Shown piece by piece: positions 38,283 to 56,923 of a stretch of 64,000 bases of DNA (position 1 is its first letter; each line of letters starts with the position of its first letter). The notes under the pieces were generated by a model. It was not told where the DNA came from. It did no database searches and saw only the letters and a list, made by a program, of their open reading frames with translations. Origin of the DNA: Gemmatimonadota bacterium (GTDB lineage: Bacteria > JAAXHH01); the NCBI GenBank assembly GCA_026705925.1, contig JAPOZT010000007.1:1-64000 (forward strand), read 5' to 3'. The translations under genes were made by a program, and so were the position numbers.

Positions 38283-39742
38283 GCCGTCTCGTAGGGGACC
38301 GCGCCGGAATCGTTTACTTCGTAATCGAATCGCTCCAGGTAATGGCCGGCGGGAAGCAGCGCGTCGCCCCGCAGGGCCATCTCCTGCTGTAACTGTCCGT
38401 CCAGTCGGGCTTCCAGGTCGGCATGTTCCTCCCGGCCGACCAGGTTGGACAGCTGGCAGGGATCCTCCCGGTTGTCGTACAGCAGCCAGGGCCCGTCGAG
38501 ATTGCGTACATAGGTGTGCCCGGCGGTCCGGATTCCCCGCCAGGGCTGGCCCCGGTATTCCGAGAATGGCGCGATGCTCATGATATAACCAGCTTCGTTG
38601 CCCGTAAAGGTCTCACCTCGAACCGCCGGAGCGTGGTCCCGGCCCTCGCAGGTATCGGGGACGGGGATGCCCGCCAGGCCTAGCAGTGTCGGCATGATGT
38701 CCACCACGTTGAAAGGGGTGTCGATACGAAGCCCCGCGTGCGCCTGGTCCGTCTGGTCCGCCTGGTCCGTCTGGTCCGCCTGGTCCGTCTGGTCCGCCTG
38801 GTCCGCCTGGTCCGGGCAACGCATAACGAAGGGAACGCGGATGGACTCGTCCCAGGGATGCTGCTTGCGCTGCCGGCCCTGCGATCCGAGCATGTCGCCG
38901 TGGTCCGAAGTATATACGAAAATCGTTTCGTCCATCAGTCCCAGTTCTTCGAGGACGCCGCCGAGCCGCGCCAACTGGTCGTCGAGGGCCGTGATGTGCG
39001 CATAGTAACCCGCCAGATCTGCCCGGGCAGGATCGGGACAGTTGGGACGCACCTCCACTTCCTCCGGCGGATACAGGTCGAGGTAGCGGGCAGGTACGGC
39101 ATCGTAGGGATTGTGCGGCGGCCCCCACGACAGCACCAGCGCAAAAGGCCGGTCGCTCGCCCGCTTCCGCTTCCGATCCTGGCTCCCGTCCCGACTCCGA
39201 TCCCCATTCCGGTCGCCGCCTCGGCCCCGACTCCGGTTGCGTATGTATTCGATGGCGAGGGTAGTCTGCGCCTCCGCGTCGTACCCGTTCCAGTACAGTG
39301 GCGCGTCCGAATCCCGGTAGTACAGGGAGTGCATGTAGTCGTGGGTGCAGTTGCCCACGGCCCAGAACTCGAACCCCTGCCTGCGGGGACCGGGCGGCGT
39401 GAATCCGCTCCGGGACGGACCGTCGAGATGCCATTTCCCGATGTAGGCCGTGTCGTAGCCCTCCGCGCGCAGGACCGTGCCCAGGGTCGGCCGGTCCGTT
39501 GGAAGCCGCTCATCGTTCATGAACATGCCGGTCGTCAATGGATACTGTCCGGTCAGAAGAGCCGCCCGCCAGGGCGTGCAGACCGGGATGTTGGAGACTG
39601 CCAGGTCAAAGACGACACCCTCGTCGGCCATGCGGTCCATGTACGGCGTCCGCACCTGGCGGCTGCCGCCGAAGCCGGTGCTGCACCATCGGTGCTGATC
39701 GCTGAACACGAATACGATGTTTTTGGCGTGGTGTCCGGACAT
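38216..39742 (-). CDS. Sulfatase with variant active-site motif and low-complexity inserts
   Basis: A 508-residue formylglycine-type sulfatase. KNIVFVFSDQHRW gives the first metal Asp; NIPVCTPWRAALLTG carries a C-T-P-W-R version of the C-x-P-S-R signature (Cys55); GKWHLDG and ETIFVYTSDHGDMLGSQG complete the site. Two inserts are unusual: residues 168-198, an Arg/Asp/Gly-rich stretch, and a DQA/DQT repeat of about 26 residues after FVMRC, encoded by eight 9-bp units. The last 15-20 residues (Gly/Ser/Pro/Arg) come from a tandem duplication. ATG 39742 has GGAG ten bases upstream. It lies between DUF4202 and the GNAT fusion, all minus strand, probably one operon. No maturation enzyme is encoded in the window. 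Confidence 0.88.
   Translation of the reverse strand: MSGHHAKNIVFVFSDQHRWCSTGFGGSRQVRTPYMDRMADEGVVFDLAVSNIPVCTPWRAALLTGQYPLTTGMFMNDERLPTDRPTLGTVLRAEGYDTAYIGKWHLDGPSRSGFTPPGPRRQGFEFWAVGNCTHDYMHSLYYRDSDAPLYWNGYDAEAQTTLAIEYIRNRSRGRGGDRNGDRSRDGSQDRKRKRASDRPFALVLSWGPPHNPYDAVPARYLDLYPPEEVEVRPNCPDPARADLAGYYAHITALDDQLARLGGVLEELGLMDETIFVYTSDHGDMLGSQGRQRKQHPWDESIRVPFVMRCPDQADQADQTDQADQTDQADQTDQAHAGLRIDTPFNVVDIMPTLLGLAGIPVPDTCEGRDHAPAVRGETFTGNEAGYIMSIAPFSEYRGQPWRGIRTAGHTYVRNLDGPWLLYDNREDPCQLSNLVGREEHADLEARLDGQLQQEMALRGDALLPAGHYLERFDYEVNDSGAVPYETAVPPPGRRGSPDHGGSPARSTR
38742..38813 (-). repeat. 9-bp tandem repeat, 8 copies, coding for DQA/DQT
   Basis: Eight 9-mers, alternating gcctggtcc and gtctggtcc for the first six units and then gcctggtcc twice, so an 18-bp higher-order unit exists. 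It encodes Asp-Gln-Ala / Asp-Gln-Thr in the sulfatase in the same codon phase as the ExbB array. Confidence 0.92.
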
Positions 39743-41357: not shown

Positions 41358-42356
41358 CTAACGCCGGAGACCCGATCCGGTTCCCTCGATCTGTGCTTCA
41401 AGGTCGTCCCGGGTGAACCAGTTAATCGGTCCGGGAATGGAACAGGAAAGCGCGGCGGCGGCGCTGCCGAACTGCAGGGCGGAACGGGTGCAGTCCTGCA
41501 GGCAGCCGAAGAGAAAACCCGACGCGAAGGCGCCCAGCGCTCCGTCGGTATCGACCGCGTTGATCTCCCCCGATCGCTCCTCGAAGGTCTCTCCCGACGG
41601 GGTAACCGCGACGGCGGACCCGTCCACTACGCCCTCGGCGGTCAAGTGGTGCTCCACGACCGCCGCGTGCTTCGCATCGAACCGGCTTCGCACCAGGCCG
41701 GCCGCCGCGTCCAAAAGGCCTTCGAAACCCCAGATCGTTTCCAAAGCCCGCCGGGTCGTCACGAGGATGCCTGCGGTTTCTACGAGACCGAGTACGACGC
41801 TGGCGACCGCGGCGTCGAGACGCTCCCCGTCCGGAACGTCCAACAGGATGCTGATCTGGTTGTCCGCGGCCCGGGCGGACTCGAGGGCGGATTCCAGTTT
41901 GCCTGCGTTCGCGGCGTCGAGCATGGGTGTCGTGAGGTCCAGGTGAAGGACGGCCGCGTCGCGGGCTGCAGCCCAGTCCTCCGCTGTGGGAGAGGCGGCA
42001 CGAAAGGCGGTACCGTCCATGTCGTACCAGTACCGGGACGACCGGGGCGCGCTGCCCGTCTCGGCGTAGCACAGCCCGGTGCGGCCTCCGGGCACGCGGA
42101 CCACGTGTCGGACGTCCACGCCATGCTCCCTGACCTTGTTGACGAGTTTCATGCCAAGGGGGGTGTCGCCCACGGCGGTAAGCCAGGCCGACCGCAGCCC
42201 GAGTCTTGCGAGTCCCACCGCCGCCTCCAGCGCGCCGCCGGACACGGCCGAGTCGAAGCCGCCGGCCTGCTCGAATCGCTCCCGCCCTCTCGGGGTAAGA
42301 CGCAGAAATCCTTCACCCCAGGTCACCACGTCATACTTTTTTCCATGTTTCCTCAT
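41358..42356 (-). CDS. PfkB-family carbohydrate kinase, variant catalytic motif
   Basis: A 332-residue ribokinase/PfkB-type protein. The start is VVTWGEGFLRLTP with SGGALEAAVGLARLGLRSAWLTAVGDTPLG (PfkB signature 1 region) and the second signature is AVDTDGALGAFASGFLFG (residues 268-284). In active members this reads DTxGAGDxF, with the catalytic Asp as the base; here residue 275 is Gly and the third position is Leu, so catalysis may be impaired. ATG 42356 lies within the third copy of a 17-bp repeat and is linked to recO by two tiny ORFs. Closest relatives include 2-keto-3-deoxygluconate kinases. It is the last gene of the eno-ftsB-recO-pfkB run. Confidence 0.85.
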   Translation of the reverse strand: MRKHGKKYDVVTWGEGFLRLTPRGRERFEQAGGFDSAVSGGALEAAVGLARLGLRSAWLTAVGDTPLGMKLVNKVREHGVDVRHVVRVPGGRTGLCYAETGSAPRSSRYWYDMDGTAFRAASPTAEDWAAARDAAVLHLDLTTPMLDAANAGKLESALESARAADNQISILLDVPDGERLDAAVASVVLGLVETAGILVTTRRALETIWGFEGLLDAAAGLVRSRFDAKHAAVVEHHLTAEGVVDGSAVAVTPSGETFEERSGEINAVDTDGALGAFASGFLFGCLQDCTRSALQFGSAAAALSCSIPGPINWFTRDDLEAQIEGTGSGLRR

Positions 42357-42373
42357 GGCTTGCGCTTCCTCAT
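42353..42373 (-). CDS. Mini-ORF 2 (MRKRKP) coupled to pfkB
   Basis: ATG AGG AAG CGC AAG CCA TGA, six codons. Its start overlaps the stop of mini-ORF 1 and its stop TGA overlaps the pfkB ATG (ATGA). It may serve only for re-initiation of translation; no evidence that the peptide matters. Confidence 0.35.
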   Translation of the reverse strand: MRKRKP

Positions 42374-42390
42374 GGCTTGCGTTTCCTCAT
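42370..42390 (-). CDS. Mini-ORF 1 (MRKRKP) coupled to recO
   Basis: ATG AGG AAA CGC AAG CCA TGA, six codons. Its ATG overlaps the recO TGA and its own stop overlaps the start of mini-ORF 2. It arises from the 17-bp triplication. Confidence 0.35.
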   Translation of the reverse strand: MRKRKP

Positions 42391-43172
42391 GGCTTGCGCT
42401 CTTGCCCGTCCTCCTCGATGGACTCCAGGAATTTCAGCGACTTAAGCTCCCGCCCGTCGTCCATCTGGTACAGATAGAAGGCGCGGATGGCGCGCTGGAT
42501 TTCCCGGCGCGACGTCCCGACGGGCTTCAGCCGGGGCAGATGCTCCAGCGGCATTTCGCGCACGCTGTTCAGCAACCGGGTGGTGCCCAGGGAGAGGTGC
42601 ATGGCCTCGCCGTCCTGCGCCTGGCAGCCCCGGCACAGGATCCCTCCCAGGGACGGACTGAACCGGACCGAGGTCTCCTTCGGACGCTTCCCGCAACCCA
42701 GGCAGGCGGCGAATTCCGGACCGGTGCCGTAGACATCGGCAAATTCGATCTGAAAGCGCCAGAACAGCATTTCGCACGCGTCCGCGGACAGCCGGTCGAT
42801 CGCTTCCAGCGTGCGTATGATCAGTCCGAAGAGTTGCTCGCCGGGTTCTTCGCCGAGAACGAGCCGGTTCACCAGTTCGCAGATGGCGCTGGCATAGCCC
42901 ACCTTCGTGAGGTCTTCCCCGATCCGCCTGAAGTACGGCCCAGCCTCGACTTTCGACAGATTCTGCAGTTCACGGTTCTCGCGATGATTGTACGATACGG
43001 TAATCACGCGCAGCGGCTGCAGCGAGGACGCCATCCTGCTCTTCGGGCGCCGCGCCCCGCGGGCCACGAGCTTCACCTTTCCGTACGCCCGCGCGTACAC
43101 CGTGACCAGGAGACTGGTATCCCCCAGCGGGATTCGGTTCAATACGATGGCTTCCGAGGATCGTATGGCCAT
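42387..43172 (-). CDS. recO: DNA repair protein RecO
   Basis: A 261-residue RecO, which helps load RecA onto SSB-coated DNA in the RecFOR pathway. The N-terminal OB-fold starts AIRSSEAIVLNRIPLGDTSLLVTVYARAYGKVKLVARGARRPKS, which is characteristic. The C-terminal helical domain has ELVNRLVLGEEP and the zinc-binding Cys pairs in FAACLGCGKRP and GGILCRGCQAQD. It is in the usual size range (about 240-260). It starts 33 bp after ftsB and ends in ERKP with a TGA overlapping an ATG, which begins a chain of couplings into pfkB. Confidence 0.93.
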   Translation of the reverse strand: MAIRSSEAIVLNRIPLGDTSLLVTVYARAYGKVKLVARGARRPKSRMASSLQPLRVITVSYNHRENRELQNLSKVEAGPYFRRIGEDLTKVGYASAICELVNRLVLGEEPGEQLFGLIIRTLEAIDRLSADACEMLFWRFQIEFADVYGTGPEFAACLGCGKRPKETSVRFSPSLGGILCRGCQAQDGEAMHLSLGTTRLLNSVREMPLEHLPRLKPVGTSRREIQRAIRAFYLYQMDDGRELKSLKFLESIEEDGQERKP

Positions 43173-43205: not shown

Positions 43206-46378
<3,173 letters not shown>

Positions 46379-56796: not shown

Positions 56797-56841
56797 GTGA
56801 GATAATAAGACATGAAGCAAGTGCCGTAGTCAAGCAGTCAG

Positions 56842-56913
56842 CGTGGTCAGCATGGTCAGCATGGTCAGCATGGTCAGCATGGTCAGCATGGTCAGCATGG
56901 TCAGCACGGTCAG
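56842..56913 (-). repeat. 9-bp tandem array, 8 copies, intergenic upstream of rmuC
   Basis: Eight units of catggtcag (the first cgtggtcag, the last cacggtcag), between the stop of the alpha/beta hydrolase (11 bp away) and rmuC ATG (46 bp away). On the minus strand each unit holds an ATG: an open MLT-repeat frame ends shortly before rmuC. The unit matches the coding 9-mer of the ExbB and sulfatase genes at seven of nine bases. Confidence 0.93.
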
Positions 56914-56923
56914 CTCAGTCCGG

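Follow-up and report, generated by a model that had tools for sequence, protein, structure and literature searches.

The window, that is, the whole stretch of 64,000 nucleotides analysed here (contig JAPOZT010000007.1 of a Gemmatimonadota bacterium), carries on its minus strand an operon-like row of genes in which eno and a DivIC-like gene lie upstream of recO, and recO is followed by a pfkB-family sugar kinase gene (Table 1). The identity of recO was established with Pfam and NCBIfam (TIGR00613) matches above cut-off. For pfkB the assignment is that of Pfam, the NCBIfam kinase models scoring only below their cut-offs (the nearest, KDG kinase models, far below).

Table 1. Parts of the recO-pfkB junction, in positions of the window.
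Feature	Position	Strand	Evidence
recO (upstream gene, 261 aa; TGA within ATGA#1)	42387..43172	-	RecO_N, RecO_C, TIGR00613
17-bp tandem array, 3.1 copies	42349..42400	-	Tandem Repeats Finder score 97
ATGA#1 (TGA = recO stop)	42390-42387	-	sequence
mini-ORF 1 (MRKRKP + stop)	42370..42390	-	sequence, translation
ATGA#2	42373-42370	-	sequence
UGAGGA in mini-ORF 1 (SD-like, for mini-ORF 2, spacing 10 nt)	42366..42371	-	16S-tail duplex -5.6 kcal/mol
mini-ORF 2 (MRKRKP + stop)	42353..42373	-	sequence, translation
ATGA#3 (ATG = pfkB start)	42356-42353	-	sequence
pfkB-family sugar kinase (downstream gene, 332 aa; ATG within ATGA#3)	41358..42356	-	PF00294

The two genes do not overlap directly, the recO stop and the pfkB ATG being 30 nt apart, and the gap is spanned by two mini-ORFs. 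Mini-ORF 1 overlaps the recO stop and the start of mini-ORF 2, and mini-ORF 2 overlaps the stop of mini-ORF 1 and the start of pfkB, each of these three steps being a 4-nt stop-start overlap. Tandem Repeats Finder reports the array as head-to-tail copies with a period of 17 and 94% matches; a search for three equally spaced ATGA matches the window at 42353-42390, and the 3' end of recO reads GAG CGC AAG CC before the first ATGA. A preliminary description of this DNA had reported the tandem 17-bp unit, the two MRKRKP ORFs and the ATGA overlaps leading from recO to pfkB, all of which are confirmed by the sequence and its translation. In the window pfkB shares the frame of recO, with 10 sense codons after the recO TGA (42354-42389, minus strand), the one such case among the 12 species compared below; readthrough of this TGA would yield a RecO-PfkB fusion.

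The same description placed an AGGA about 10 bases before each next start. This holds for mini-ORF 2 and for pfkB, since the hexamer UGAGGA is found at a spacing of 10 nt within mini-ORF 1 and again within mini-ORF 2, but not for mini-ORF 1, where pairing with the 16S tail is weak. In the window the predicted duplex is -5.6 kcal/mol before both mini-ORF 2 and pfkB, and -2.5 before mini-ORF 1 (the tail sequence used has exact matches in 4 of the 12 genomes, and the genome of the window is not one of these). The Shine-Dalgarno (SD) sequence of pfkB thus comes from a duplicated unit, and mini-ORF 2 has the layout of a coupled short leader ORF, with a stop overlapping the next start and the SD-like hexamer inside; the further copy of the hexamer in the next unit (42349-42354) consists of pfkB codons and has no SD role. 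Published coupled gene pairs differ in how far they need an SD-like motif before the second start. Predicted RNA structure from -15 to +5 of the pfkB start did not separate species with mini-ORFs from those without (mean unpaired probability 0.35-0.53 in five species vs 0.22-0.58 in seven). A consensus scan found no promoter near the junction that would serve pfkB alone, a case the preliminary description had raised against coupling, and this counts as weak evidence.

These signals bear on an alternative, namely that there is no relay: the SD in the last unit would bring ribosomes, whether fresh or returning, straight to the pfkB start, and the mini-ORFs would be incidental. In agreement with it, pfkB is preceded by a match of -5.2 to -8.3 kcal/mol in each of the 12 species, while that of mini-ORF 1 is only -2.5 in the window and in G008. 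In G005, G010 and G002, however, the match of the first mini-ORF reaches -6.3 to -6.6 kcal/mol.

RecO was found in 45 of the 59 genomes searched, including the window's own and all 11 relatives of the same genus, and in each of these 11 it remains adjacent to pfkB: the ORF after it, of 312 or 332 codons, has a beginning that resembles that of the window's pfkB. Four family- or order-level relatives (L013-L016) have a different ORF after recO, so the pair is, as far as seen, a feature of this genus, whose members are uncultured. The preliminary description had proposed comparing unit number in related genomes, and it does differ, ranging from zero to three mini-ORFs over 12 species; one genome was used per species, so this is variation between species. 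Seven relatives have none, their genes overlapping directly (G001, G003, G004, G006, G007, G009 and G011); three have one (MRKRRS in G005, MRKRKP in G008, MRERKP in G010); the window's species has two; and G002 has three (MRDRKP, MRDRKP, MRERRP). The distance from stop to ATG is accordingly -4 in six species, -1 in G007, +13 in three, +30 in the window and +47 in G002. All extra units are 17 bp long and differ from one another by up to several bases, and the mini-peptides vary from species to species.

An assembly error in the repeat might be suspected, given that the window comes from a draft assembly of 38 contigs. The preliminary description listed such an error among the ways in which it could be wrong, but the array is just about 52 bp long, and the same 17-bp array is present in the separate assemblies of 4 of the 11 relatives, at other copy numbers and with differing unit sequences, which makes this explanation extremely unlikely.

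The behaviour of the unit follows from simple arithmetic. Duplicating an ATGA overlap with a unit of length L gives a new ORF that stops within the following ATGA if L = 2 mod 3. Since 17 is 2 mod 3 and the unit has no other in-frame stop, every added copy creates one six-codon ORF with an ATGA on both sides and leaves both genes intact; the same arithmetic brings the window's pfkB back into the frame of recO. Whatever the copy number, the pfkB ATG is intact and its frame stays open (312 or 332 codons) in all species, so that the number of units does not throw pfkB out of frame and back as a phase-variable repeat would. The preliminary description had asked whether other copy numbers keep the ATGA register, and they do, in five of the five species with mini-ORFs. 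One should be careful with this result, as further 17-bp copies will keep the register without selection, and a register that is automatic is no evidence of selection.

The same point applies to the proposal that the array is a selected rheostat, in which unit number would set a low pfkB output by chained, lossy reinitiation. In its favour, the inner ATGA are all intact in the five species with mini-ORFs despite the divergence of the units. Yet the register is automatic, and among the eight intact extra units the difference between ATGA positions (0 of 4 variable) and spacer positions (5 of 13) is not significant as a sign of selection (Fisher P 0.26).

The history of the junction was traced with a protein tree and a 6.4-kb DNA tree, both rooted at the midpoint with no outgroup, in which the window's species groups with G001, G002, G005, G006, G008 and G010 in a poorly resolved clade of seven. 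The other five species lie outside this clade; all lack mini-ORFs and have a -4 or -1 overlap, and a direct short overlap is therefore probably the ancestral state. This agrees with the earlier proposal that an original short overlap was multiplied by the 17-bp unit. Either a single gain followed by loss (G006), decay (G001) and growth (the window and G002), or several gains, would fit the trees.

In the case of G001, 34 nt lie between the recO tail and the ATGA, and 21 of the 34 positions fit two known units, where each unit was the best of six and the comparison was made after the sequence had been seen. A fit this good arose in about 1 in 10,000 shuffles. Along the 20.8-kb locus it was reached on the coding strand only by the site itself and by the site slid one unit, and on the other strand by 4 of 20,749 placements. 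Both inner ATGA are gone, and recO is extended to 272 aa and overlaps pfkB directly. G001 thus probably carries two decayed 17-bp units. Taken with the series of zero to three mini-ORFs, the direct overlap in G001 indicates that the stop-start contact is what is conserved, and that mini-ORFs come and go. A short direct repeat 17 bp apart was also considered as the seed of the duplication, and it does not explain the unit length: among the five of seven zero-copy species searched, G006 has a 5-bp repeat at lag 17, tied with lag 25, and lag 17 was not the best in G003, G004, G009 and G011.

As a repeat, the array is not exceptional. In a survey of 358 kb of the same genome (the window and 16 further stretches), 97 arrays had a score of at least 50, and 21 of these at least 95. 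The period was divisible by three in 50 of the 53 coding arrays, a split that is approximate since the gene caller took a wrong opposite-strand ORF over recO and pfkB and the window array was counted as coding; the other 44 arrays, sorted by length mod 3 (2:1:0), gave 16:14:14, with no bias to relay lengths. Other arrays in the window include an 18-bp repeat of 4.1 copies at 38741-38814, forming a DQADQT-type insert in an ORF that is sulfatase-like by eye, an 18-bp array of 3.1 copies in the N-terminal part of the DivIC-like gene (43604-43658), and a 9-bp array of 8.7 copies at 56837-56914.

A scan of the 12 genomes for three equally spaced ATGA, with the reversed pattern as a control, gave the following matches and controls: 25 and 3 at 11 bp, 7 and 5 at 13 bp, 9 and 4 at 14 bp, 10 and 4 at 16 bp, 22 and 9 at 17 bp, 73 and 6 at 18 bp, 7 and 9 at 19 bp, 11 and 6 at 20 bp, and 6 and 4 at 23 bp. 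Period 18 suits coding sequence. The relay lengths of 14, 17, 20 and 23 bp together have 48 matches vs 23 controls, and 13, 16 and 19 bp have 24 vs 18, which is a modest lean to relay lengths in raw counts that include overlapping matches in one array and orthologous elements. This lean counts on the side of a rheostat, and the absence of a length bias among arrays outside coding sequence counts against it.

Chains of 11 bp were rejected as a second relay family. Ten of the 25 matches are one conserved intergenic element (L155, L157, L162, L163, L165, L166, L169, L172, L174 and L178), with three more similar, and it reads on the other strand as paired CGTCATA sites 11 bp apart, presumably akin to Pho boxes or other response-regulator boxes; the element precedes a PorV-like gene (by Pfam, on L163 only). 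Because these chains read as paired sites on the other strand, binding sites can be mistaken for ATGA chains, and one might ask whether the 17-bp unit is itself a protein-binding site, on either strand, with incidental ATGA content. We consider this very improbable, as the array spans two genes in an operon-like row, has zero to three extra copies, and starts and ends where the genes do.

Comparable repeats are found at other gene junctions of the genus. In G004 a 17-bp chain lies between OppD-like and OppF-like genes and encodes LTECGR (from CTG) and then MTECGK twice; another 17-bp chain precedes a Gfo/Idh/MocA oxidoreductase gene in G009. These independent chains are the further point in favour of a rheostat. 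Repeats without a relay also occur: G002 has one of 13 bp that separates recX from a LigT/2'-5' RNA ligase-like gene, and G001 one of 16 bp between gyrA/parC-like and uxuA-like genes. The oppD-oppF pair was found in 11 of the 12 genomes, and judged by eye its repeats in G000 (14 bp) and G007 (about 19 bp) have no relay, which speaks against a rheostat. The 13-, 16- and 17-bp cases mean that junction repeats arise at several lengths, relay forms included.

Some further observations were made at such sites. The oppD-oppF spacing ranges from +5 to +55 nt in 11 relatives (L189-L199), three of which have repeats of 14, 17 and about 19 bp. On the minus strand of L066/L074 in G004, a 17-bp array encodes MNDGAP, MNKDEP and MNKDEP, chained by ATGA; the ORF that comes next is just six codons long, and the chain does not lead directly into a large gene. 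In three relatives (L179, L181 and L183, coding strand 1501-1550), an eight-codon ORF (MKKGRRLL or MKKGIRLL) precedes the ribosomal protein L15 gene, and its stop overlaps the L15 start via ATGA.

Whether ribosomes would make use of the chain depends on how far coupling can reach, and the literature on this is divided. In PMC10666635, reinitiation in three E. coli pairs falls by 40-80% at +14 nt and is almost gone at +38 nt; one of the pairs still reinitiates at a distance of 15 nt, and reinitiation needs no more of the upstream gene than its final 15 nt. Other studies cited there saw coupling over 73 nt and over 150-850 nt. Should the steep dependence apply, recO and pfkB would be almost uncoupled by the 30-nt gap, and a hand-over via mini-ORFs with 4-nt overlaps would naturally be expected. 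A ribosome relay is therefore plausible in view of the published distances and of the 30 nt between the recO stop and the pfkB ATG. Given coupling over 73-850 nt in the other work that this paper names, the mini-ORFs may not be needed. Such scanning across longer gaps, together with the lack of mini-ORFs in 7 of the 12 species, would suit the direct start of pfkB described above; the E. coli losses and the -4 overlap at every step of the chain, which couples best, go against it. We regard a direct start as a serious candidate, if a rather unlikely one.

We favour, with some reserve, the view that this is a slippage-born repeat at a conserved coupled junction, whose coupling is passively kept by the register, and which is mainly neutral rather than a dedicated rheostat. 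A 17-bp repeat would have expanded over the recO-pfkB ATGA overlap via slippage or unequal exchange. Ribosomes ending recO would reinitiate at the overlapping ATG, translate the mini-ORFs and so reach pfkB, and others would use the SD in the last unit to begin at pfkB itself. The chain may thereby passively preserve coupling across an insertion of 13-47 nt, which by itself would be expected to weaken it, and the array itself would be mainly neutral or nearly so. The preliminary description had gone further and suggested a low and tunable pfkB output. A tuned low output does not follow from these data, since the register is automatic, 7 of the 12 species have no mini-ORFs, and one of these, G001, lacks them by probable decay; the even 16:14:14 distribution points the same way. 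A selected rheostat thus appears quite unlikely, and none of the observations points to it specifically. We are equally doubtful of the broader idea that the genus has a recurrent and evolvable kind of translational linker in ATGA repeats whose lengths suit a relay (14, 17 and perhaps 20 bp), in which chains of 5-7-codon ORFs would hand on terminating ribosomes and unit number would set the yield of the next gene.

The natural copy-number series makes the junction a good test object. If ribosomes pass along the chain, the species with zero to three mini-ORFs provide a natural series for measuring the yield per reinitiation step, and for testing whether chained overlaps bridge distances that would otherwise uncouple two genes. 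As long as the unit measures 2 mod 3, a repeat prone to slippage can add DNA between coupled genes and leave them coupled. If ribosomes do not use the chain, we recommend caution in interpreting such arrays: with a unit of this kind of length, every copy holds the register automatically, and function cannot be deduced from it.

Single coupled short ORFs and coupled gene pairs are known (PMC5574718, PMC10666635, PMC6728339 and PMC4833913); a tandem chain of coupled mini-ORFs was not found in searches of the open-licence PMC literature. The closest relatives are the ATGA or TGATG gene pairs for which PMC6728339 and PMC10666635 describe termination-reinitiation. Like these, recO and pfkB are neighbours on the same strand, with a 4- or 1-nt stop/start overlap in 7 of the 12 species. 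Unlike them, the genes in the window do not overlap, and three serial 4-nt overlaps and two duplicated mini-ORFs bridge the 30 nt. The iraD leader of E. coli, as described in PMC5574718, has one 27-aa ORF (ORF27) in the 5' leader, under CsrA control. There too the stop codon of a short ORF overlaps the start of the gene to which that ORF is coupled, whereas the window has a chain of six-codon repeats inside an operon, with no regulator known.

The array also resembles bacterial variable-number short tandem repeats in its head-to-tail units and in a copy number that varies among relatives, but here each new copy adds a mini-ORF with stop-start contacts, and both genes stay in frame. Bicistronic design cassettes place an SD inside a short leader ORF in a stop-start layout. 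The window chain shares with them a short leader ORF that bears the SD of the next start, and differs in being natural, tandem and fed by the upstream gene rather than by its own promoter.
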